Below, in pieces: positions 5,341 through 22,792 of a stretch of DNA of 26,994 nt. Each line of letters opens with the position of its first letter. Position 1 is the stretch's first letter. Location: the IMG/VR virus record IMGVR_UViG_3300023192_003943, positions 1 to 26,994 of that record. One strand, given 5' to 3'. The stretch comes from a virus. The notes beneath the pieces were generated by a model. That model searched no databases. It was not told the DNA's origin and worked only from the letters and a program-made list of their open reading frames with translations. Both the position numbers and the translations under genes were made by a program.

Positions 5341-6714
5341 CTATAAAACCCCCAAAGTATTATAATTTTTATCCTTTTTAAGTTTTAAAGGAAATTTTCC
5401 GTTTGAAATAATTTTATTTAATCCTATTAATGTTTCTTTCCCATCCATTTTATCAAAATCAAAAAGAAAAGAATCATACACATATAATACTAATTTAGTT
5501 CTTTTACTTTCCAAAAATCTAAATATTTTACCCATTACCTCTATATTATTTTCAGTTTCTATGCTTTGAATGTAATAATTAAACAATTTTTGTGGTGTGA
5601 TATTAAGGTGGTGTTTTTTAAATATCCTTTTCTTTGCAAAAGGAGTTTCAATGTGTTCGTAATCTTTTCTTATAGGCCTCTTTTTATTAAATTCTTCCCA
5701 TAATTTATTTATAAAATCTTGTGTTAATCTAAAATAATCATGTTTTAAATACTTTTTATTAATCCCCCCATACATTTGTTTAAATGTAAATTCTTTTGAT
5801 TTCTTGTATAATTCATCTGTAATCTCATCTGTTTCAAAATATATTTGGGCTAATTGTTTGTGTACACTTTCATTTCCAAATTCATACCCTACCAAATCAG
5901 CAATTATTCTTGGGTGGTACCCTTCATAATCAACTTCAATAAAAAAATCATTACTAGCTTCAAAGCACCCTCTTTCTCCATTATCCTTTTTTAAAGCAGA
6001 AAAATTAACACCATTAAAATTATTTGTGGGTCTTCCTGTGGTTGTTTCGTAATTGTATTGGCCAAATATTTTAGTATTTCTAATATTGAACTTTTTTTCT
6101 ACATCAAAATATTCATCAAATTTATCATTAATTTGTAAACCTTGTTGTTCAAGTTTATACAAAACAGGAATCAAAACCTTATTATACCAATTAATACTTT
6201 CCAACCCTATTTGGGGGACCTTACCCATAGTTCTTGCATAAACAACGTGTCTCCTACGTTCACACACATCGTAGTGCTTCCCAATAGGTATCATTTTATT
6301 TACGTTTGTCTTACCGAATTTGCGCTGAAAAAATGTGTGGGCGGTGGTGGTGAAATTATCTTCAAAAGGCTTACCTGTTAGTAGATAAGATCGAGATCTT
6401 AAATCAACCATACAATAAGAAGGGTATAAATGTAATGATTTTTTCTTATCTAAAACACATAATATTTTGTATTTTTCTATAAGTTTATAAACATCTTCCC
6501 TCCATTGAATACTATCATTTATACATTCAGGATGATCTAAACCAATCATAAACCCCTCATTTAAGTGATAAGAGTAAATATAAACCAAAATAGATTCATC
6601 TAAAGCAGGATGTTTTTTATCATTACCTTGAATGAACTCAATATAGCATTCATCAAAATTCTCTTCTTGTTCAAATTGTTTGAGCTGTTTTAAAGTCTCT
6701 ATTAAATAAAACAT
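5341..6714 (-). CDS. Compact family A (Pol I-type) DNA polymerase
   Basis: The 457-aa protein is the likely phage replicative polymerase. The C-terminal half has the family A palm and fingers: ETTTGRPTN (223-231), motif A FIEVDYEGYHPR with catalytic Asp262, motif B YKKSKEFTFKQMYGG with Lys307, Phe311 and Tyr315, NYYIQS (379-384) matching the Asn/Gln of the Q helix, and motif C LYVYDSFLFDF with Asp414. Motif C has YDS where Pol I has HDE, so the usual second acidic residue is Ser. Motif A has His where Pol I has the steric-gate Glu. Residues 1-190 resemble the 3'-5' exonuclease fold (YLIETLKQLKQF, ILVYIYSYHLNEGFMIGLDHP), but the first catalytic DxE motif is not evident, so proofreading is doubtful. 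There is no 5' nuclease domain. It lies after the tail genes, beginning the replication block. Confidence 0.88.
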   Translation of the reverse strand: MFYLIETLKQLKQFEQEENFDECYIEFIQGNDKKHPALDESILVYIYSYHLNEGFMIGLDHPECINDSIQWREDVYKLIEKYKILCVLDKKKSLHLYPSYCMVDLRSRSYLLTGKPFEDNFTTTAHTFFQRKFGKTNVNKMIPIGKHYDVCERRRHVVYARTMGKVPQIGLESINWYNKVLIPVLYKLEQQGLQINDKFDEYFDVEKKFNIRNTKIFGQYNYETTTGRPTNNFNGVNFSALKKDNGERGCFEASNDFFIEVDYEGYHPRIIADLVGYEFGNESVHKQLAQIYFETDEITDELYKKSKEFTFKQMYGGINKKYLKHDYFRLTQDFINKLWEEFNKKRPIRKDYEHIETPFAKKRIFKKHHLNITPQKLFNYYIQSIETENNIEVMGKIFRFLESKRTKLVLYVYDSFLFDFDKMDGKETLIGLNKIISNGKFPLKLKKDKNYNTLGVL

Positions 6715-11753: not shown

Positions 11754-12461
11754 TTAATAATCAAAATCAGCAAACCCACCACCACCAAAACCTGAATGTT
11801 GGGCTCTGGCTTTTGCCTCTCTATCTGCTTGTCGTTGGTTATATGATTTTTTCCCATCCGCCCCTACAGAAGGATTTGTTTTAACCGTATTTGGTAAAGC
11901 GGCAGGATCAGTATTTTGTGAGTTTGTATTTTGTTTAGCATTATTATCAGGATTAGTAGAAGCCGCATCAGGGTTACCCGATGATACTGTATTACCTGCT
12001 GCTTTATCTTCAGCTGCTTCTTTTTCTGCATTTGTTTCTGCATTAATCACTGTTTCCAACATCTCCTCCTCAGTAGCAGGTTGAGGTCCCCAAGGATCAT
12101 TCCCCCTAGTAAGCCATGAAGATTTTTCGGGTAATATAAATGGTGATTTTTCTATTGACTTTTGTGGCAAGAAAGTATGGATTGGAGTAAAACTCATCTG
12201 AACATCTAATACATGAGGTAATACCAACATTTCAGCAGAAGGCCCATTAACCGTGTTAGGTCCATCTTTTCCTTTAGAATCTAATTTAATTTCCCAAGGA
12301 TAATCAGTTTTCCAAGATAAACTAATTGAATCAATTATTCCTGGGGTTCTGCTTATTAAATCTCCAATAGTTAATCTTATAAAAGCCCCCCTTAATCTTG
12401 TATTTTTATATTCAGGAGCAGTATTACTTACTAATTTCGATAAAGAGGTCTCATTTCCCAT
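11754..12461 (-). CDS. Baseplate/tail structural protein, third piece of an apparently split gene
   Basis: This 235-aa frame begins at ATG 12461, inside the preceding gene (31-nt overlap, frame -1). A stop lies directly before the ATG. The first 110 residues hold conserved structural motifs: RGAFIRLTIGDLISRTPGII, SLSWKTDYPWEI and VLPHVLDVQMSFTPIHTFLP, which in the family I remember follow directly on the end of the preceding product. Reading across with one -1 shift gives PLYRKLVSNTAPEY, a natural continuation. Residues about 125-210 are low-complexity (Ala, Asn, Glu, Thr) and the end is HSGFGGGGFADFDY. No Shine-Dalgarno precedes the ATG. It may be made separately, by frameshift, or be intact in reality if the sequence has a missing base. 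Confidence 0.7.
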   Translation of the reverse strand: MGNETSLSKLVSNTAPEYKNTRLRGAFIRLTIGDLISRTPGIIDSISLSWKTDYPWEIKLDSKGKDGPNTVNGPSAEMLVLPHVLDVQMSFTPIHTFLPQKSIEKSPFILPEKSSWLTRGNDPWGPQPATEEEMLETVINAETNAEKEAAEDKAAGNTVSSGNPDAASTNPDNNAKQNTNSQNTDPAALPNTVKTNPSVGADGKKSYNQRQADREAKARAQHSGFGGGGFADFDY

Positions 12462-13360
12462 CTAGTTTGGGCTGCTATTTTGAAACTAAAACTTATTTTT
12501 CTATCAAATGTGTTGTAAGTATAAAAACTTTCAGCTCTACCACTATATTTATATTTATTCCAGCCAGCAGTATAATTATCTGTAAAAGTATCTAAAAAAG
12601 CTCTAAACACCATCATGTCTGATGCTGTTGGGTTATTAGAATCTATAGCTTCAATTCTAAAATTAATTAAATCTTTATAAGCAGGATCATTAAATTCTTT
12701 ATCTCCATTTCTCTTTAAACTAACAATATTTAAATGATTAATTTGGTCTATAGTACCACCATCTAACCCCCCATATGCATGATAGGGTAAAAGTTTTAAA
12801 TTTAATTTTCCTGGATTACCTGTTCGGAAATTTTGTTCTCTAGTTTGGTTTCTATAAGTAGCCAGGTCTCTTTGTTGGTAATCAGAAACTTGAGATGCTA
12901 TTCCCTTATCTTCATATTTTAATTTTCTAAAATCTACTATAGAAAAAGCTTCATCTGGAACCCTTAATCTAGAATATATAGAAGTATCAATTATTTGAGG
13001 AGGAGTTTTGGCAAGTTCTGTAAAAATTGGTTTATGTTCATTAGTAGCATCTTGATGGGGTGATGGTTTATATTTTTTAATTTGTGTTCTGCCTATTCCT
13101 AAAATACTTCCGGGACCCCCTGAATAATCTAATAATTCATTTTCGTTGGAAGAAATGGGAGATAATCCTGGAAGATCCTTTATGCCCCATATTTTACTAT
13201 AAAATAATTTAGTTAATCTGTTCTTCGATAGAGATTTACTTGCATCCCAATAAAAATTACCATATTTTTTAAGATTTGCACTATCAACTTTAGAACCCAT
13301 CTCAACACCATAACCAACAAAAGGAATTAATCCTGCTCTTTCCATATGTTGACCTAACAT
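12431..13360 (-). CDS. Baseplate/tail structural protein, second piece of an apparently split gene
   Basis: The 309-aa frame starts at ATG 13360, but the same frame is open to 13399 and the extra upstream residues (NSGVNTIAQVPIN) look like conserved protein, not leader. Landmarks are LLDYSGGPGSILGIG (about 96-110), DFRKLKYEDKG, INFRIEAID, and the end FRAFLDTFTDNYTAGWN with FYTYNTFDRKISFSFKIAAQTRWEM. These are typical of a conserved structural protein of marine and Bacteroidota myoviruses that is normally one chain with its neighbours on both sides. It shares frame with neither neighbour. The role is probably in the baseplate or tube-baseplate junction; no enzyme motif is seen. Confidence 0.72.
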   Translation of the reverse strand: MLGQHMERAGLIPFVGYGVEMGSKVDSANLKKYGNFYWDASKSLSKNRLTKLFYSKIWGIKDLPGLSPISSNENELLDYSGGPGSILGIGRTQIKKYKPSPHQDATNEHKPIFTELAKTPPQIIDTSIYSRLRVPDEAFSIVDFRKLKYEDKGIASQVSDYQQRDLATYRNQTREQNFRTGNPGKLNLKLLPYHAYGGLDGGTIDQINHLNIVSLKRNGDKEFNDPAYKDLINFRIEAIDSNNPTASDMMVFRAFLDTFTDNYTAGWNKYKYSGRAESFYTYNTFDRKISFSFKIAAQTRWEMRPLYRN

Positions 13361-13377
13361 ATTTATAGGAACTTGAG

Positions 13378-13848
13378 CTATAGTATTAACTCCGGAATTT
13401 TAGGATTTGAAAGTTGAAGAGAAACTTGTTTAACTATAAAAGTAATACCTTTAGGTGAAATCATAAATTTCCCTATCCTTTTAGTATCTAAAAGTGCTCT
13501 TTTGGCAGCAGTTATAATACCCCCCCTCATAAATCCCCCTGTAACTGTGTCTATCATTCCTAAAACTGCATTGCCTTCCTTACTGTGAGGGGCAGGTAAA
13601 CCAATTGTTACTAACGGGGCACCCGAAAAAGGATAACTTGTATCCCCATAGGAAGGCATTCCTGGGTTTGATATGGCTGCTGATCCTTTTTTAAGATGGT
13701 AAGTTCTTTGTCTTAGAGATTTACTATTAAAAGGACTATGTCCTGTATTCCCATAATTAGCCCCCCCGACATAAATAGCTGGGGTATTATTAAAGGGGTA
13801 AGCTGATAAAGCTCCTTGTAAATCTGTAAGTAGTTGTTTTAAAGCCAT
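13378..13848 (-). CDS. Baseplate/tail structural protein, first piece of an apparently split gene
   Basis: The 156-aa frame starts at ATG 13848, 9 nt after the repeat protein. It carries YVGGANYGNTGHSPF, a Gly/Pro-rich region, MIDTVTGGFMRGGIITAAKRALLDTKRI and SPKGITFIVKQVSLQLSNP, a stretch conserved in myoviral structural proteins. In those proteins it leads straight into a segment like NTIAQVPIN, which is found here in the next frame 20 nt on. The stop at 13378 therefore looks premature. A single extra A in the AAAA at 13398-13401 would join the two as PKNSGVNTIAQVP. Confidence 0.68.
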   Translation of the reverse strand: MALKQLLTDLQGALSAYPFNNTPAIYVGGANYGNTGHSPFNSKSLRQRTYHLKKGSAAISNPGMPSYGDTSYPFSGAPLVTIGLPAPHSKEGNAVLGMIDTVTGGFMRGGIITAAKRALLDTKRIGKFMISPKGITFIVKQVSLQLSNPKIPELIL

Positions 13849-13857
13849 ATTTAAAAA

Positions 13858-15468
13858 TTAATCATTCCATAAACCCGGAATTTGGGCAACATATGGTGTT
13901 GATTGTTTAGGGTTTGAAGGAGTTATTGTAGGCCATCCAGCTCCTTTAGGTTGTCCGGCTCCATAACTAAATAATGAATTTACATTACTATTATAGGGCA
14001 CATTTGAGATTAATTTTTCAGATATAGTATCTACTCCTCCACCTTTTGGTTCTCCCCCAGCATTTCCTAACCTATTTTTATATTTTGCAAATAAAGGACC
14101 ATGCTGTCCCTTTAAACTTAAAGATGTATTTTTTGCTTCTCCTAATGTATCTCCATGCTGGTAAGAATAAATAGGCCCAAAATCATCATGTAAACTTCTT
14201 TCTGCTATGGTATCAAAAATATTTTTTGCGGCTTCCTGTCCTGGGTGAAATTTATCAAACTTTGGGGGTTTTGTATGGTTTGGTAAATCTAATTGGGTAG
14301 CAGCAAGTATTTCAGTTGAATTCCCATAAGTATATGAATAAGGAAGACCTAAACTTCTTTCTGCTATAGTATCATATGCATCATTAGGGTTACCTGGTTC
14401 TTTTCCTATATTAAAAAATTTATTTCTATATTTAGCAAATTGGGGGCCTGATTGCCCATCTAAACTCCATTCAGATGGGGTTGCTTCTCCTGGAGTATCT
14501 CCATGGGTATAGGTATGGGGCTGGGTTAAACTTTCTTCATGAAGAGTATTTATTAAATTCTGACCTGAGGGGCCCTGTGTTTCTTCTCCCCTATTAAAAA
14601 TAGGAGGTGTAGTATGATCTGATAAATCTAAAGTAGTAGCTAGAGCTTCTCCCGGAGTATCTCCATGAGTATAGGTATGGGGTTGGGTTAAACTTTTTTC
14701 ATGAATGGTATCAATAATAGGATTGTTTGTATCCTGTGTTACTTCAACCCCTTTATCAAAAATAGGGGGGGTACTATGATCTGGTAGGTCTAAAGTAGTT
14801 GCTGGGGCTTCTCCTGGAGTGTTTCCATGTTGATAATTATAAATTTGGGTTAAACTTTTTTCATGAAGAGTATCAATAATCGGGGCATTTTTATCCTGTG
14901 TTACTTCAACCCCTTTATCAAAAATAGGAGGGGTACTATGATCTGGTAGATCTAAAGTAGTAGCTTTGGCTATTTCTGAAGAATTTCCATGTTGATACGA
15001 ATAGTCTGAATTTAAACTTTTTTCATGGAGAGTATCAATAATAGGGCTATTTTTATCTTGAGTTACTTCAACTCCTTTATCAAATTGAGGACCTGGTTGT
15101 CCATCTAAATCTTGATAGGGAGATGTTGTTGGGAGATTACCTAAAGAATCTGGTTGTAAGGTTGATTGTTTACCTAAATCAAATTGGGGGCCTGGTTGCC
15201 CATCTAAATCTTGATAGGGTGAAGTTGTAGGAACATCCCCCAATGAATCTTGCTGTAAAGTTGAAGTACTCCCTAAATCAAATTGAGGGCCTTGTTGTCC
15301 ATCAATATCTTGATAAGGGGAAATAGTAGGGATATTAGCTAAAGAATCTTGCTGTAGAGTTGATTGTTTACCTAAATCAAATTGAGCAGGGTTTACATTT
15401 TTCATTTCAGATACAGGAGATTGCCCTCCTACTAAATCAAATTGTGATTTTAAATTTTTTAGTCCCAT
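13858..15468 (-). CDS. Repetitive tail protein with two families of tandem units
   Basis: I do not recognise a function for this 536-aa protein. Residues 29-127 are three exact-length 33-aa units (QFDLG, STLQ, DSL, PT.SPYQD.DGQ.GP). From 129 to 459 there are six longer units of 53-60 aa beginning F(D/A/N) and containing a (D/N)T(L/I) HEKSL or AERSL segment, Y(S/N/T)Y.(H/Y)G and DLP(D/N)H or an equivalent; the first three are exactly 54 aa and nearly identical. A seventh degenerate unit forms the C-terminus, which ends in PGLWND. No membrane span, cysteine pattern or catalytic motif is visible. It sits between the tape measure and baseplate genes and has its own TATTTATA box 16 nt before ATG. 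A repeated docking or cross-linking role in the tail is possible, but is guesswork. Confidence 0.85.
   Translation of the reverse strand: MGLKNLKSQFDLVGGQSPVSEMKNVNPAQFDLGKQSTLQQDSLANIPTISPYQDIDGQQGPQFDLGSTSTLQQDSLGDVPTTSPYQDLDGQPGPQFDLGKQSTLQPDSLGNLPTTSPYQDLDGQPGPQFDKGVEVTQDKNSPIIDTLHEKSLNSDYSYQHGNSSEIAKATTLDLPDHSTPPIFDKGVEVTQDKNAPIIDTLHEKSLTQIYNYQHGNTPGEAPATTLDLPDHSTPPIFDKGVEVTQDTNNPIIDTIHEKSLTQPHTYTHGDTPGEALATTLDLSDHTTPPIFNRGEETQGPSGQNLINTLHEESLTQPHTYTHGDTPGEATPSEWSLDGQSGPQFAKYRNKFFNIGKEPGNPNDAYDTIAERSLGLPYSYTYGNSTEILAATQLDLPNHTKPPKFDKFHPGQEAAKNIFDTIAERSLHDDFGPIYSYQHGDTLGEAKNTSLSLKGQHGPLFAKYKNRLGNAGGEPKGGGVDTISEKLISNVPYNSNVNSLFSYGAGQPKGAGWPTITPSNPKQSTPYVAQIPGLWND
14092..15084 (-). repeat. 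Tandem coding repeats, long family (six units)
   Basis: Unit spans are 14923-15084, 14761-14922 and 14599-14760 (162 bp each, 54 aa), then 14440-14598, 14260-14439 and 14092-14259 (159, 180 and 168 bp). The first three are very similar at DNA level; later ones diverge and differ in length, which fits expansion by duplication at the 5' side. Confidence 0.85.
15088..15384 (-). repeat. Tandem coding repeats, short family (three 99-bp units)
   Basis: Three consecutive 33-codon units (residues 29-61, 62-94, 95-127). A partial copy of the unit start, QFDL, lies at residues 9-12. The unit end GQPGPQFD merges into the first long unit, and a similar GQSGPQFA and GQHGPLFA occur at ends of long units, so the two families appear related by a shared boundary. 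Confidence 0.88.
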
Positions 15469-15484
15469 AATGTTTATGTTTTAT

Positions 15485-15492
15485 TATAAATA
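15485..15492 (-). promoter_or_regulatory. TATTTATA box upstream of the repetitive tail protein
   Basis: Exact sense-strand TATTTATA, followed by ATAAAACA, 16 nt before ATG. It abuts the tape-measure stop (15493), which leaves only a very short leader. Confidence 0.5.
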
Positions 15493-17988
15493 TTAACCAT
15501 ATATTTTAGATTGATGGTTGTTTTCCATAAACTGAACGTTCAATCCATGAGGAGAATTCAATGCTCTTTGGCTAAAGTCTATTGTTGGTGGTTTTGATTT
15601 TTCATTTGCCATTACCATAGCATCAACCATATCTTCTTTTGTTAATCCCAAAGTATTCCCTCCTCCTTGGGCCAGAGCAAATAAATTTGCTTGTTGGTTT
15701 TTATTCAATATCATTTCTCCTGAATTTACCATAGCTGGGACCTTATCGCCTGTTTCTGAATCCCCTGGTACAATACCACCTTCTGCAAACATATATTTAG
15801 CAGCCATACCCGCTACAGTAACCCCAGCAGCCAAACCTAAAGCCCAACCAATAAAAGGTATAGAAGAAAGAGAAGCAATAACTTTAAACACAGCCGTCCC
15901 TACAGCTCTTGTTAAACCAGTTGCTTCCCGTATTGCTCTTCTAGCAGCAAATCCTTGTTCTACCATCAGATACCCTAAATAAACTCCTTTCATAATATTA
16001 CTTGCTGCCTGAATTATTTTTATAGCTTTCATAGTCCCCCATATAGTTAACATAGCAATTGATATAGTACCTACAATACCCTCCATTACACTTAATTCCT
16101 TATTACTCCCAGTAAATAAACCTACCATTTTAGATACACTTGTAATAATATAATTTATGGGCTCTAATGCTAACGTTAATAAATTTAAAAACATAGAAAG
16201 TGGCCCTCCAACTAAATCAACAAATATTCCTTTCAATTTTAAAACAGCATCTGCCATTTTTTCTTCAATAGATCTAGCTTCTAATCTTTTTGCTAAATCT
16301 TCATTTCCAGCAGCTCTTGCTTCTTGAGCTAATTGGGCTAAATTTTCTTTCTTTAAAAGAGCATCAGATAATTCATTTACTTCCATACCAACAGCTGTTG
16401 CTAATGCTTTTTGTTGAAGAACATTCATTTTAGTAAAATCTCCCCAATCCCCTACATTGGCTGCTATTTCTTTAGTTAAAGTTTCATAATCCCCAGTTAA
16501 TGCTGCTAAACGAGCTTTTTCAAGGTTAAGTTGTTTTCCTGTAAGTAGTTCTGCTTGTAATTCAGCTTCAATACTTGATTGAAAATCCAAAAATTGTCCC
16601 CCTGCGGATGCAATCTTTTCTAATTCAAACCCTAATTGTTTTGCTACTGCAACTGCTTTAGCAATTGCCTCTGGGTTTGCCCCCAATTGAGCCCTAATTT
16701 GGCCTGTGATTTTTCCCGTAGCCTCTAAAATTTCTTTAATATTTAACCTAACTCCAAACTCCGCTTCAGCAGCAACAACCGCCCCAATCATATCTTCTTT
16801 TATTTGCCCTAAGGGCTTACCAGCAACAATAGCGGCTTTTGCTAATTCAGCTGTTGATTCAGCTGATAAACCCATTTTTTCTGATAAAATGGTAGCCTGA
16901 GTAACTACTTCAGGATAACTGGTTAAAAGGATAGTAGAAGAGGTTCCAAAAGAAGCATTTAAAGAATTAAAAGTTTTTAATAATCTTTCAGAATTAACCG
17001 CCATATCACCTGAAACATTAGCTGCCATTCCCATTTGTTCTCTAAGAACAAATGCTTCTGTTGCTGATAAACCTAAATTCTTTTGTAAAGCGGTTGTTTG
17101 TTTATTAAAATCTAAAGCTGCTTGGAGATAAACTAAAGGATCATTAATGTTTGATATTATAGATTTACCTATTTCTTCGGTAAGGATTCTAAAACCATCC
17201 AATTTAGTAGCATTCTCTCCATGTAGTTCTTTTTCTTTTTGTAAAACCAGTAATTTTTCTCTAGATTTGTTTAATATACTATCTGTGTTTCCTAAAGCCC
17301 CCCCTAATAATTTATTAATTACTTTAAGTCCTTGCCCAGAAAGCCCCATGGCTTTTTCTACCGCTAATAATGTTTTCTCTTCTTTTTCTAAAGCTGCTAC
17401 TATCTCATCTGATACCCCTAAAATTTTCTTTGAAGTCATAAGTTGTACTTCATCATTTGACATGGCTTTAACTCTAGTAGCTAAACTTCTTTCATGGCTT
17501 TGTATTTGTCTTGCAAGGTTTTTTTCTGTTTTTTCATCAACTACTAATCCAGCTTTTTTCTTATCTTGCATTAATGCAAGTTCTTTTTTCTGATTTACAA
17601 TTCCCCTTTCTATATTAATAGCAAAATTAATTCTCTTTTCTTCGAGTGATAATACATCTTTATTAGCCCCCCTAAATATACTAATTAAATTATTATTGGT
17701 TTTTTGAATTTGTGATTGTTTATCTCTAAGAGTATTTAAACTTTTACTAATATCCTTTAAATCAGTATATTCACTTTTTAATTTACGAGAAGCATTAACT
17801 AATTGGTTTGAAACGTTTAATGAATCCTTATCTATTCGATAAGAACCTTCTTTTATAATATTAATGTGACGAAGTTGATCATTTAAATCAACTGATCTAT
17901 CATAATACTGTTGCATTAAATCAACAGTTTCTCTATCGGGGGGTAAAGAACCACCAGAAGGGGAAGGGGTTTTGGGATCGTCTGCCAT
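15493..17988 (-). CDS. Tail tape measure protein
   Basis: The 831-aa protein would set tail length and occupy the tube lumen before DNA passage. It is largely helical: residues about 20-290 are charged coiled coil rich in Lys/Glu/Leu, 300-570 are Ala-rich helices, and about 590-735 are hydrophobic helices with GGPLSMFLNLLTLALEPINY and SSIPFIGWALGLAAGVTVAG, typical of the membrane-active part of tape measures. The C-terminal region from 735 starts AEGGIVPGDSETGDKVPAMV and NSGEMILN, a very common tape-measure motif. Its place directly after the tail-assembly chaperone frames is the conserved one. It has its own TATTTATA box 21 nt before ATG. T4 gp29 is 590 aa, so this tail should be longer than that of T4 if the length rule holds. 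Confidence 0.92.
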   Translation of the reverse strand: MADDPKTPSPSGGSLPPDRETVDLMQQYYDRSVDLNDQLRHINIIKEGSYRIDKDSLNVSNQLVNASRKLKSEYTDLKDISKSLNTLRDKQSQIQKTNNNLISIFRGANKDVLSLEEKRINFAINIERGIVNQKKELALMQDKKKAGLVVDEKTEKNLARQIQSHERSLATRVKAMSNDEVQLMTSKKILGVSDEIVAALEKEEKTLLAVEKAMGLSGQGLKVINKLLGGALGNTDSILNKSREKLLVLQKEKELHGENATKLDGFRILTEEIGKSIISNINDPLVYLQAALDFNKQTTALQKNLGLSATEAFVLREQMGMAANVSGDMAVNSERLLKTFNSLNASFGTSSTILLTSYPEVVTQATILSEKMGLSAESTAELAKAAIVAGKPLGQIKEDMIGAVVAAEAEFGVRLNIKEILEATGKITGQIRAQLGANPEAIAKAVAVAKQLGFELEKIASAGGQFLDFQSSIEAELQAELLTGKQLNLEKARLAALTGDYETLTKEIAANVGDWGDFTKMNVLQQKALATAVGMEVNELSDALLKKENLAQLAQEARAAGNEDLAKRLEARSIEEKMADAVLKLKGIFVDLVGGPLSMFLNLLTLALEPINYIITSVSKMVGLFTGSNKELSVMEGIVGTISIAMLTIWGTMKAIKIIQAASNIMKGVYLGYLMVEQGFAARRAIREATGLTRAVGTAVFKVIASLSSIPFIGWALGLAAGVTVAGMAAKYMFAEGGIVPGDSETGDKVPAMVNSGEMILNKNQQANLFALAQGGGNTLGLTKEDMVDAMVMANEKSKPPTIDFSQRALNSPHGLNVQFMENNHQSKIYG

Positions 17989-18052: not shown

Positions 18053-18322
18053 TTAAAAATTATATGTTGATGATGGTTTTACATTAGGACCTCTAACATC
18101 TTTAGAATCTGGGGATTGGCCTTTAGAAACGTTTTCATATTCTGTATTCTGTTTTTCAATAAATTGATTTATTCTGTGAATATGAAATCTTCTAAGCCAT
18201 ATGGGCATGTGGTATACTTCAGAATGAATAAATCCTCCTCCTCCATGATATGTTAAATCATGAATTTGATTAAAAATCTCAATTCTATATTTAGAGGTCA
18301 GGCCAAAAAAAGCTAACCCCAA
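18053..18322 (-). CDS. Second tail-assembly chaperone frame, possibly made by frameshift from the gp26-like gene
   Basis: The frame encodes up to 89 aa: GLTSKYRIEIFNQIHDLTYHGGGGFIHSEVYHMPIWLRRFHIHRINQFIEKQN. The VYHMPIWLRRF segment is the hallmark of the small T4-like protein (gp51-type) encoded after gp26. There is no ATG at a useful position; the only start codon is a TTG at 18322, with AGGAGG 15 nt upstream, and a stop lies 9 codons before it. The frame overlaps the gp26-like gene by 32 nt in the +1 frame, and a run of seven T in the overlap (18305-18311) would allow a +1 or -2 slip giving a fused product. Either internal TTG initiation or frameshift could express it. The position just before the tape measure gene matches tail-assembly chaperones in general. 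Confidence 0.75.
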   Translation of the reverse strand: MGLAFFGLTSKYRIEIFNQIHDLTYHGGGGFIHSEVYHMPIWLRRFHIHRINQFIEKQNTEYENVSKGQSPDSKDVRGPNVKPSSTYNF

Positions 18323-19070
18323 TAGGGATTTGTACGTCCTCCTCTACGTATCCATCTTCGGATTCAAAATCAAAAGTTAAATTTACATCAGGCATTATCT
18401 GTTTTGCATATTCCCTTAATGACCTAGAATCTCTTGCTAATAAAGCATTATCAACAAAATCCCTTATGGTTTTTTGTTCATAATCTCCATTTACTGAGAG
18501 TATTACATGCTTTAAACGAGTAGTTAATTCTGCCCCCCCTTTATTAAGTTTTTGAAGGCCCTTTAATTCTTGTTCAATTTTTCTTTCAACACCATGAGTT
18601 AAAAGTTGAAAAGTAATATTAACTTTTGAATGAGGCAAAATAAATTCAAATTCATTTTTACCCCCTATAATTAAATCTTCATTAATTACTTTATCTTCAA
18701 CCCCCGATAAATCTATTGTTGTTTCTTCTTCAATTCCTGTTTTGGGGTGAGGGTATTTAAAAGTATATGAAGAACCATAACCTAAAATACGGGCAGCAAT
18801 TAATATTGCATTTTTATCTCCTATTAAAAGATCATTATAATCTATAGAAGTTATAATTAATGATTGTAATAATTTATCAATTACTGTTCCTTTTGTGATT
18901 AAATTTTGATTTGTTAAAATATCCTCTTCCCTTGCTGTCATATACTTCATCTCAATAGTGCCTTTTGAAAGCGGACTATCTTTAGAATATAGTAATCCTT
19001 TTGAGGGTAATGTGACTTCTTCTGTTGGGAATTTAAATTTTGATTCTGCTTGTTGTGTTTGTGCTTCCAT
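18291..19070 (-). CDS. T4 gp26-like baseplate/tail-assembly protein
   Basis: The 259-aa protein fits the T4 baseplate gp26 family. It begins with FPTEEVTLPSKGLLYSKDSP, then GTIEMKYMTAREEDILTNQN, and TVIDKLLQSLIITSIDYNDLLIGDKNAILIAARILGYGSSY, all family features. The C-terminal part is helical and charged and ends in IPIGVSFFWPDL. In T4 this protein is needed for hub/baseplate assembly; the gene order tube, gp26-like, overlapping small frame, tape measure suggests a tail-assembly chaperone function. It has its own promoter-like box (TATGTATA) 25 nt before ATG and follows a strong terminator. Its last codons carry the T7 run discussed under findings. Confidence 0.85.
   Translation of the reverse strand: MEAQTQQAESKFKFPTEEVTLPSKGLLYSKDSPLSKGTIEMKYMTAREEDILTNQNLITKGTVIDKLLQSLIITSIDYNDLLIGDKNAILIAARILGYGSSYTFKYPHPKTGIEEETTIDLSGVEDKVINEDLIIGGKNEFEFILPHSKVNITFQLLTHGVERKIEQELKGLQKLNKGGAELTTRLKHVILSVNGDYEQKTIRDFVDNALLARDSRSLREYAKQIMPDVNLTFDFESEDGYVEEDVQIPIGVSFFWPDL
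18305..18311 (-). other. Candidate slippery run (T7) in the gp26-like / small-frame overlap
   Basis: Zero frame reads AGC TTT TTT TGG CCT GAC CTC TAA. A +1 or -2 slip on the T run continues as GGC CTG ACC TCT AAA TAT and enters the 89-aa frame. A -1 slip meets TGA at once. AGGAGG lies about 25 nt upstream. The frameshift itself is inferred. Confidence 0.5.
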
Positions 19071-19452: not shown

Positions 19453-19941
19453 TTAGTAGTTTAATATTGCGTAATCCATTCGTATAACAATACTAATGTT
19501 CATTGGGGTTTCACCTACTGACCAGTCAGCCTCCCCAAAATTCGCAGATTTTACATAGGCACCTTTACAAATCCATTCTTCAACTACATCCCCAACAGGG
19601 CCAAGCGCATTAAATCTAATATCTTTTTTATAGAAATCAGAATAACCATCTCTACCTGTTACGGATTCATGTGATAAACGAACCCATTCCATTACTGATT
19701 GTGCTCCTGAAGGAGTTACGGGATCATATAATTCAGCAGTTATATCTTGCCAATCGGCTTTGCCTTTTAGTTTTCTTTTAATATTAATATGTTCTAATGT
19801 TACATCACCAAAGGATACATTAGGGCGACCTACTTTCCTAACTAAATAAGCAGGAATACCATCAATGTACATTATAAACCTATTTTGCATTTTGGGTTCA
19901 AATGCAGTGAAAAACATTTCGTTTGTATCTAAAATTGCCAT
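19453..19941 (-). CDS. Tail tube protein, T4 gp19-like
   Basis: The 162-aa protein would form the inner tube of the contractile tail. It matches the T4 gp19 family in length (163 aa in T4) and motifs: FFTAFEPKMQNRFIMYIDGIPAYLVRKVGRP at the start, LEHINIKRKLKGKADWQDITAELYDPVTPSGAQSV in the middle, and SANFGEADWSVGETPMNISIVIRMDYAILNY at the end. It is the second gene of a sheath-tube pair, the universal order in contractile tails, and has its own TATTTATA box 22 nt before ATG plus a terminator after it, so it can be made in excess of neighbours, as needed for a major virion protein. Confidence 0.93.
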   Translation of the reverse strand: MAILDTNEMFFTAFEPKMQNRFIMYIDGIPAYLVRKVGRPNVSFGDVTLEHINIKRKLKGKADWQDITAELYDPVTPSGAQSVMEWVRLSHESVTGRDGYSDFYKKDIRFNALGPVGDVVEEWICKGAYVKSANFGEADWSVGETPMNISIVIRMDYAILNY

Positions 19942-19987: not shown

Positions 19988-22792
19988 TTATGATGGGAAA
20001 GTTGCTCCTGTTGGGAGAACATTGAAATCCAAGATAATAAATTCAGCTGTTTTTGTTGGTTGTAAATAAATCTGTCCAACTAATTCATTTCTATCAATAA
20101 CAGCAGATGTGTTGTTTGATTCATCCATAACAACCCTAAAAGCATACAATCCTTGTCGTTGTTGAATTGTTTCTAAATATGGGTTTACTATGTTTAAGAA
20201 TCTGTTACGAGTTTGAATAGTATTTTGTTCAAATATTAAATACCTAGAAGAACTTGCAATGTATTTCTTAACTGTTATTAATAATCTTCGTACATTTACT
20301 CTATCAAGAGCTGATGATTTTTGTTGTAATGTTTTCTGACCCCAAATTGCAACTCCTGTTTGTGGGAATGTAGCTATTGGGTTAACATTAGCATCATATA
20401 ATTTATCCCTTTCAGCATGATTAAGTCTAATTTTGGCTTCTAATACTCCACCTAAAGCGCCTCTATTTAAACCTGCTGGGGCAAACCATTCAGCCGATAA
20501 ATTATCACTTGCAGCAATAGCACCGGGTACAATTACTGAAGGTGGAACATATATAGGCTTATTAATATTGTCATCTAAAATCTTAACCCAAGGGAAATAA
20601 GTTGCAGTATAACTTGAATTTAAACCACTAGAATCATTAACCGCAGTATTGACTGAAGAATCAACAGCATCCAAATCCATTACATAAAATGTATCACCTC
20701 TTGCTTCTGCCATATTGATTGCATGAGTTGTAACTGGTGTGTGTAAACTTTTAAGAACACCAGGTAATACTACCATATTAATATCATATTCATCTTGATT
20801 TGAAATTATATCAAGAGCTTTTTTATATGCTTTTGATCCTACGGCTCCACCGCTTGATAAATCCATTCCATATAAGTTACTATCTTCAATGTATTCACCT
20901 ACTTGTTTTACAATATCCGGATTCATACCATCTGAACCTCCTTGAAGAGCTACTGAAAATTGTAATTGTCCTGCTGTAGGGCCTGCCATTCCTGTTGGAT
21001 CAATTGATTCACTTAAACTTCCAACCCATAAACTAGAACTTGGGTGGCCTGAATAATTTTCAACATTAAATACTCCTTGAACACTTACAACTGGAGCATC
21101 AGGTACTGGTTTAAAATAATTTTCATTATCTTTAGCAGTATAATCGATTCCTAAATATGATTTAGCATTATATGCACTATCAATTTCTTGAGTTGATTGA
21201 TAAGACATTGAGGGCAAATATGCTATTGTAGCTCCTATTGCGGCTGTTCCTCCTTCTAAAGTTAATACAGGACTAAAAAGAAGTCCAGATCCTGTATCTA
21301 CCGTAATAGCATTACCTGATGTTCCCGCAGATGAAGCTGTTACTTCAATAGCGGTTCCTGAAGCGTCTGTGGTATCAACTCCAATTGCTGCTGAATCAAT
21401 TTCCAAGACTAAGTTTGTTATATAAGTAGCAGCATCAGAACCTGTTGCTAAGAAATATATAGGAGGAGAATCAACAGGCAAACCACCAGCAGGATCCGCT
21501 GCTATAAATCTATATGTAGTACTTCCAACTGTAATTTGGAATTCATCATCTACAGTTTCACCGAAACTATTAACTATCGTTAATGAGCCGGTTGCTACAG
21601 CAGCAGCAGTTGTTGGTAATCCTGCAAATCCTTTAATTGTTTGGTTCATTGCTTTAAATCCTTTAGGAGATAATTTTGGAGAATATGAACCTCCATCTAC
21701 ACCAGGAGCAACTTCTATCCTACAATATTCTGAATTGTTAGGATAATCTCCTAAGAAATCAACCTTACCTGTGGTTGAATTATATTGTTGGTATCTATCT
21801 CCTATTACTCTTGCAACATAAGTAACATCATTTGGGTCTAAAGTACAATTATTAAATTGTTCAAGAACTAAAGGAGTCTTATCAGAATCCCCAAATTGTC
21901 TTATAATTATAGAAAATTTACTATATTGTTCTACTCCTTCAATATCCCCAGGTTCTTGGAGATTAGTTACTGAAATTTTGTAATCTTTGTTTGTGCTGGT
22001 TCCATCTGCCAGAGTATGAACTTTAAATAAGTTTGATGTGGTTTTGTTTGAATCTAAAAATTGTGAAGTAACCCATGGGGTAGAAGCTCTATTATATCCT
22101 TCATCAGCATATGAACTTTTAAATATAATATCTGATGTATTAACAGACAATATTATATTCGAACCTGTTAAGGCTGCTTGTCTTACTTTAAAATTTAAAT
22201 ATGGGTAACCAGATTCTTCATAAGTATTAACTCCTGTTTTTGAGTTATTAGCATCTTTACCCAAAGATTTTTCAATATAATCTGTAGCTGTAGGGTTGAT
22301 TGAAGCAGATAATTGTTTTCCTCCGGGTTCAATATTAGACCCACTAAGAATTAAACCAAATGATCCTGTAAGAGATACTGTAGTTGGGGAGATTGATGAT
22401 TTCCCCAACCCTTGAGAATTACCATTAATTGTAGATTTAGAAGGATGAAATACTGTTAAAATCTCACTTGAACCTGAATCTATAAGAGCTGCTAATAATT
22501 TTTCTCCTGTTTTAAAGCTCCATCCACCTCCACCAAGTACTCTAATTACAGTTACTGTTCCTGCGCTTTTTAAATATTCTCTTACTGTATATGGGATATA
22601 TGTTTCTTGACTTAGTCCGCCAAATTTTCTTTCAAACTGCCCAAATCCATTTTGTATTACCATAGGAATGAATGCGGGACCCTTTACTGTTGGGCCTATT
22701 ACTACTGCTCCTATCGCTCCGATTCCTTGGGGTAAAAAACTTTGGTCGTTTTCACGTGTGAATACACCGGGGGAAATAATTTGTTCTGCCAT
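19988..22792 (-). CDS. Tail sheath protein, T4 gp18-like, with inserted domain
   Basis: The 934-aa protein is the contractile sheath subunit. The N-terminus reads ISPGVFTRENDQSFLPQGIG and GAVVIGPTVKGPAF, followed by YTVREYLKSAGTVTVIRVLGGGG, all sheath features. The conserved C-terminal domain includes LYDANVNPIATFPQTGVAIWGQKTL, INVRRLLI-like VNVRRLLITVKKYI, and FRVVMDESNN ending in IYLQPTKTAEFIILDFNVLPTGA. T4 gp18 is 659 aa; the excess lies in the surface-exposed middle, including a Gly/Ala/Thr-rich insert at about residues 400-520 (21233-21595) with ITVGSTTYRF and SSAGTSGNAITVDT. Its own TATTTATA box and an upstream terminator isolate it as a strongly expressed unit. Confidence 0.94.
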   Translation of the reverse strand: MAEQIISPGVFTRENDQSFLPQGIGAIGAVVIGPTVKGPAFIPMVIQNGFGQFERKFGGLSQETYIPYTVREYLKSAGTVTVIRVLGGGGWSFKTGEKLLAALIDSGSSEILTVFHPSKSTINGNSQGLGKSSISPTTVSLTGSFGLILSGSNIEPGGKQLSASINPTATDYIEKSLGKDANNSKTGVNTYEESGYPYLNFKVRQAALTGSNIILSVNTSDIIFKSSYADEGYNRASTPWVTSQFLDSNKTTSNLFKVHTLADGTSTNKDYKISVTNLQEPGDIEGVEQYSKFSIIIRQFGDSDKTPLVLEQFNNCTLDPNDVTYVARVIGDRYQQYNSTTGKVDFLGDYPNNSEYCRIEVAPGVDGGSYSPKLSPKGFKAMNQTIKGFAGLPTTAAAVATGSLTIVNSFGETVDDEFQITVGSTTYRFIAADPAGGLPVDSPPIYFLATGSDAATYITNLVLEIDSAAIGVDTTDASGTAIEVTASSAGTSGNAITVDTGSGLLFSPVLTLEGGTAAIGATIAYLPSMSYQSTQEIDSAYNAKSYLGIDYTAKDNENYFKPVPDAPVVSVQGVFNVENYSGHPSSSLWVGSLSESIDPTGMAGPTAGQLQFSVALQGGSDGMNPDIVKQVGEYIEDSNLYGMDLSSGGAVGSKAYKKALDIISNQDEYDINMVVLPGVLKSLHTPVTTHAINMAEARGDTFYVMDLDAVDSSVNTAVNDSSGLNSSYTATYFPWVKILDDNINKPIYVPPSVIVPGAIAASDNLSAEWFAPAGLNRGALGGVLEAKIRLNHAERDKLYDANVNPIATFPQTGVAIWGQKTLQQKSSALDRVNVRRLLITVKKYIASSSRYLIFEQNTIQTRNRFLNIVNPYLETIQQRQGLYAFRVVMDESNNTSAVIDRNELVGQIYLQPTKTAEFIILDFNVLPTGATFPS

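Follow-up and report, generated by a model that had tools for sequence, protein, structure and literature searches.

Sequence and gene order place a 536-aa repeat protein in a modular family at the tape measure-tube cap junction of phages

The sequence under study, hereafter the window, is a virus record of 26,994 bases from a contractile-tailed phage. On its minus strand it encodes a 536-aa protein built from tandem repeats, whose gene, as judged from its sequence and synteny, is a member of a modular family located at the junction between the tape measure and tube cap genes. Contractile tails are generally considered to be conserved where tape measure, tube and baseplate meet. To find at this place a gene whose product ranges from 52 to 536 aa, has no functional profile match and changes its modules between close relatives was unexpected. 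The window protein is the longest free-standing form found; many junction proteins are short, such as gp036 (74 aa) of Flavobacterium phage vB_FspM_immuto, and others are long arrays resembling that of the window. The original prediction for this gene mentioned neither its minus strand nor a family extending across a phage group, with many members much shorter. We give an even chance to the reading that the protein is a flexible chain studded with short binding motifs and tethered to the tail tip, at the tube-baseplate junction. The features of the window on which the argument draws are listed here in the order of transcription.

19988-22792, minus strand: sheath gene, 934 aa, with a PHROG match
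19453-19941, minus strand: tube gene
18291-19070 and 18053-18322, minus strand: overlapping ORF pair, the former matching a hub PHROG
15493-17988, minus strand: tape measure protein gene, 831 aa
15480-15491, minus strand: promoter-like box ATTTATAATAAA, its TATAAT kept upstream of the modular gene in relatives
13858-15468, minus strand: modular repeat protein, 536 aa (ORF list and translation)
15385-15468, minus strand: N-terminal segment MGLKNLKSQFDLVGG..., carrying the motif common to the downstream tube-cap-like protein
15088-15384, minus strand: three units of 33 aa each, S1 (15286-15384), S2 (15187-15285) and S3 (15088-15186), from Tandem Repeats Finder and unit delimitation
14095-15087, minus strand: six units of 53-60 aa, L1 (beginning at 15087) to L6 (ending at 14095), of 54, 54, 54, 53, 60 and 56 aa in order, from Tandem Repeats Finder and unit delimitation
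13858-14094, minus strand: degenerate last unit and C-terminus (...STPYVAQIPGLWND), including the stop codon
13378-13848, minus strand: tube-cap-like gene, frame piece 1, 156 aa
12431-13360, minus strand: tube-cap-like gene, frame piece 2, 309 aa
11754-12461, minus strand: tube-cap-like gene, frame piece 3, 235 aa
11430-11741, minus strand: baseplate wedge (phrog_7145) gene, 103 aa

Transcription thus runs from sheath and tube through the overlapping ORF pair and the tape measure gene to the repeat protein and the tube-cap-like gene. The original prediction had put the gene between tape measure and baseplate genes, rightly according to the PHROG and structure matches of the neighbours, and its location in the tail region is borne out by constant synteny with the tape measure and tube-cap-like genes. 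Two further observations concern the upstream genes. The sheath protein is large, its PHROG match covering residues 2-932 against a profile of 496 positions, which implies a big insertion. The ORFs 18053-18322 and 18291-19070, directly upstream of the tape measure gene, overlap by 32 bases, an arrangement that we take to resemble the tail assembly chaperone pairs expressed with a frameshift.

Downstream of the repeat protein, the three ORFs of 156, 309 and 235 aa (11754-13848) lie in three different frames and correspond to one continuous gene of the relatives, with frame breaks near 13396 and at 12437-12443; the gene is a single ORF in the relative L090 and in 84 others of one alignment. The split may be due to sequencing or assembly errors, or to decay of the gene. 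With the 85-row alignment, AlphaFold gave a confident model of the L090 protein over about residues 400-600. In Foldseek this model matched baseplate proteins from phages and from contractile injection systems, 6j0n_b being the best (E 1.3e-6), and the matches in BFVD included predicted viral proteins named "baseplate tail tube cap". A second aligner (VIA) gave Z 9.9 with an rmsd of 3.1 over 144 aligned residues for 6j0n_b, and Z 9.5 with an rmsd of 3.4 over 150 aligned residues for T4 5iv5_BE. T4 gp48 and gp54 are described as the platform for the tube (PMC3004832). From these matches of the C-terminal domain and the platform role of gp48 and gp54 we named the neighbour tube-cap-like; tube-like domains are widespread in tails, and the name therefore leaves its exact role unsettled.

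Tandem Repeats Finder independently recovered two adjoining arrays in the gene, one of period 99 (3.1 copies, 15079-15386, score 404) and one of period 162 (3.7 copies, 14483-15084, score 645), so the tandem repeats that had been predicted in the 536-aa product are real. The prediction had spoken of three exact 33-aa units. There are three, and their length is exact, but their sequences are not, with 25, 27 and 28 of the 33 residues, and 76-83 of the 99 bases, identical in the pairwise comparisons. The six units of 53-60 aa and the degenerate end that were said to follow were recovered by unit delimitation; among the first three of them, 36-43 of 54 residues and 123-133 of 162 bases are identical pairwise. 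At identical residues a differing codon is used in 9 of 25, 8 of 27 and 12 of 28 cases in the S pairs, and in 9 of 43, 8 of 36 and 10 of 43 cases in the L1-L3 pairs. Since overall 21-43% of conserved residues in these comparisons are encoded by different codons, the copies have drifted at synonymous sites, and to call the array recent was an overstatement. The longest exact DNA repeat in the array is 37 bases, which makes collapse of the array during assembly unlikely. Units with LDLPDH are without the D.DG core. This core resembles a Ca2+-binding motif and might conceivably bind Ca2+.

The gene had also been credited with a promoter-like box of its own, and such a box is present at 15480-15491 on the minus strand. 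Among the relatives, 59 of 91 distinct stretches preceding the modular gene contain TATAAT within 45 bases of it; the corresponding numbers are 1 of 100 for the cap-like gene, 21 of 94 for the tape measure and 121 of 624 for the remaining ORFs. Across the whole window, promoter-like boxes showed no excess over shuffles. Boxes like ATATTTATA stand upstream of positions 15468, 17988, 19941 and 22792 on the minus strand, that is, of the modular, tape measure, tube and sheath genes, and the box is possibly a late promoter of this phage group. With such a box in front of it, the modular gene could be transcribed together with the cap-like gene but separately from that of the tape measure.

Used as a query, the window protein found no relative in the IMG/VR viral contigs or among 50,697 phage records, and no PDB sequence below E 0.1; the 309-aa piece of the tube-cap-like gene alone likewise found no relative in the IMG/VR viral contigs. 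Relatives were reached with the conserved C-terminal domain of the tube-cap-like protein as the query, which retrieved 144 IMG/VR relatives in one search and 433 in another, the latter number of stretches encoding a relative of the cap-like protein giving the breadth of the group. Among the phage records this domain matched only four immuto records, Mel-JY01 and one uncultured record, and no relative of the cap-like protein was confirmed in cellular genomes. The best 80 of the 144 and the best 80 of the 433 were kept, yielding 141 loci, 80 from the first search and 61 from the second; L135, L136, L139, L141, L142, L144, L145, L147 and L149 were left out since their contigs were already in the set. 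L081 and L128 are one contig, present in both sets, and identical proteins were merged before distinct proteins were counted. A complete ORF directly precedes the cap-like gene in 125 of the 141 loci, representing 98 distinct proteins. In the other 16, the cap-like ORF is open at the contig end (L011, L015, L027, L030, L083), the cap-like ORF is short or broken (L127, L152), or there is no ORF at the junction (L047, L051, L056, L057, L058, L060, L061, L072, L133). The last nine loci indicate that the gene is not universal.

Several lines of evidence connect the junction proteins to one another. By blastp, the window protein matches 30 of the 98 distinct junction proteins at E<=1e-3 (best 1.3e-29), while 100 shuffles and the reversed sequence gave 0 matches. 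The other 68 have no direct match to it, some being linked via intermediates. A profile of 42 short members matches 19 of 57 long proteins, all at E<=0.0069, with 0 matches in five shuffles of each; the window protein is not among these 19, and the long proteins of L090, L094, L031, L114 and L103 are matched both by this profile and by the window protein. In 99 junction proteins there are 157 occurrences of the motif D[LIM][DN]G, spread over 66 of them, compared with a mean of 3.0 in shuffles and only 4 occurrences in 99 cap-like proteins. The window protein itself combines the junction position, matches to other members and the N-terminal MGLKNL. For the remainder of the 98, probable membership rests on synteny and likeness by eye.

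The original prediction saw no known fold or role for the protein, and this has held, none having emerged by profile, sequence or structure prediction. Pfam gave no match to the window protein and PHROG no functional match; phrog_19710, of unknown function, reached E 2.3e-4, with no single stretch passing alone. DUF1543 matched 4 of 38 relatives (best E 1.8e-4) and left the window protein unmatched. The profile search that had been proposed as a check thus returned no profile of known function. In the literature searched, which took in a minority of the subscription journals, we found no account of this protein or of any variable repeat protein encoded between the genes for tape measure and tube cap, and the junction family, as delimited here from sequence, appears to be without a description there.

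Length is the most variable property of the family. In a set of 87 distinct members whose neighbours are complete, half do not exceed 107 aa and the longest has 459 aa, and the coefficient of variation of length is 0.69 for the modular protein compared with 0.23 for the tape measure and 0.20 for the cap-like protein. A spread so far above that of its neighbours, with so many short members, is what near-neutral expansion would produce, if only the termini and one module mattered and the extras accumulated by unselected slippage. We rank this as the least probable of the explanations considered, since nine boundaries in the window protein retain the core, since the units differ at synonymous codons yet keep that core, and since in a separate clade long arrays are found at this junction too, as part of the cap-like protein. 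The array could alternatively lie inside the tail tube as a second ruler or lumen filler, its length helping to set that of the tail; the gene does adjoin that of the tape measure, and an array of tandem units could be a means of adjusting length. However, in the 87 distinct loci, uncorrected for kinship, longer modular proteins go with shorter tape measures (Spearman -0.41, p 8e-5), and the number of motifs shows no relation to tape-measure length (Spearman -0.14, p 0.19). The modular proteins of L110 and L112 differ by 122 aa, and their tape measures by 5 aa. No long helix is predicted either. On the length correlations and the L110/L112 comparison we reject a ruler as the main explanation and hold it to be very unlikely. 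That the protein is itself a tape measure protein was likewise rejected, no long helix being predicted and a separate tape measure gene being present. The length of the modular protein is positively related to that of the cap-like protein (Spearman 0.59, kinship uncorrected).

Close relatives show how the modules change. We compared 99 distinct pairs of modular and cap-like proteins, binned by the identity of the cap-like proteins. The modular proteins were equally long in 10 of 11 comparisons at a cap-like identity of at least 95%, in 7 of 9 at 85-95%, in 5 of 18 at 70-85% and in 9 of 41 at 60-70%. A single 38-aa module separates L092 from L098, the module types at matching places are not the same in L086 and L093, and in L107 and L117 both the type and the number of modules differ. 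The modular proteins of L111 and L117 are 98.4% identical, whereas their cap-like proteins are only 68.6% identical, and in L114 one module is present twice side by side, the copies agreeing in 86 of 93 bases. Together these cases indicate that modules are gained, lost and exchanged. The repeats are therefore not invariant among relatives, and the expansion and contraction that the original prediction expected is observed between them. In L079 two modular-type ORFs adjoin (5738-6055, 105 aa, and 6057-6452, 131 aa), as if by whole-gene duplication.

Frequent module swapping would also fit a host-facing or ejected protein, with modules that touch the host envelope or are delivered into the cell and that are shuffled as the host changes. 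Swaps between relatives with cap-like proteins 84-89% identical are in line with such a role, as are near-identical modular proteins beside the diverged cap-like proteins of L111 and L117. The neighbours, however, are tube and baseplate core genes and not fibre genes, and no adhesin-like fold or family was found; we consider a host-facing role improbable.

The predicted structure bears on the nature of the chain. With a 38-row alignment, AlphaFold gave the window protein a mean pLDDT of 46 and no secondary structure but one short helix, while the block-mean pLDDT of its first 30 residues was 76-82. The repeat alignment is shallow and hard to align, and within this limit no confident fold is predicted for the repeat protein; its neighbour has a predicted tube-like beta domain. 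The low-confidence model fits an extended, disordered chain, although the shallow alignment may hide a real fold. The N-terminal pattern M[AGSP][LI]..., which was drawn up once the sequences had been seen, is carried by 85 of the 125 modular and 74 of the 129 cap-like proteins; among the remaining ORFs of these loci the figure is 4 of 968. This common pattern suggests a shared docking site, or that the gene is a copy of the N-terminal arm of the cap-like protein.

A disordered chain would be compatible with an assembly factor, in which the repeats bind tape measure or tube-cap subunits when the tail is initiated and which is absent from the finished virion. The position of the gene and the regulation that it presumably shares with the cap-like gene would suit such a factor. 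Tail assembly chaperone genes, however, usually precede the tape measure gene, and this gene follows it; moreover, the chaperone-like overlapping ORF pair already lies upstream of the tape measure gene. We regard an assembly factor as unlikely. A tail assembly chaperone proper was rejected as the identity of the protein, its gene being downstream of the tape measure gene.

In the tethered motif array that we favour, the protein would be part of the virion. Its N-terminal motif (M[GA]LK.L.S.L), also present on the tube-cap-like protein, would dock both proteins at the same place in the tail tip, and the remainder would be an extended chain, with a core (about DLDG..GP.F, then an SL or LHE..L stretch) returning at intervals of 33-60 residues. 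Each copy of the core would weakly bind one of the repeated subunits of tube, tape measure or baseplate. Since the copies would work independently, the number and kind of modules would be free to change, as they do in the relatives, and tandem gain and loss and the exchange of modules would be tolerated with assembly unbroken. A bolder proposal, which we put forward tentatively and with some doubt, is that this tunable tether is a new tail component of a large uncultured group of contractile phages, a free-standing copy of the tube-cap N-terminal arm, and that in a second clade this arm acquired an unrelated array of its own. Two cultured phages, immuto with a short form and Mel-JY01 with a fused array, open the location, copy number and role of these proteins to direct testing.

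The immuto protein gp036, annotated as a hypothetical protein, occupies the same place between the tape measure and cap-like genes. It has an N-terminus of the type found in the window protein and one copy of the STLHN...SSLDLDG module, and the profile of its family matches proteins closely related to that of the window. It differs in being without a repeat array and in having no significant direct match to the window protein (best E 0.12). In Microcystis phage Mel-JY01, the hypothetical protein WWT39329 (2255 aa) carries a long tandem array at the same tail junction, preceded by an N-terminus of the same type and followed by a C-terminal cap-like domain of the same kind. Here, by contrast, the array consists of 44-aa units inside the cap-like protein, and no separate junction ORF is annotated. 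Both kinds of unit have a G....P..(Y/F) core, and homology between the 44-aa units and the window modules was rejected, 2 weak matches being found with the real sequences and 2 with shuffled ones. The Mel-JY01 clade (L003, 12572-19339; L154-L163) comprises ten further contigs with 44-aa arrays, outside the 141 loci, in which the number of units varies and the proteins have 2059-2976 aa.

Two better-known systems invite comparison. The likeness to T4 gp48 and gp54, at the junction of baseplate and tail tube, concerns the predicted C-terminal domain of the neighbour and not the repeat protein, and T4 presumably has no gene between gp29 and gp48. Some tape measure proteins are built of repeated units that were gained and lost in evolution, and they resemble the present family in being products of tail genes with such changing units; they differ in that here the tape measure has a separate gene, no helix is predicted and repeat length is uncoupled from tape-measure length.
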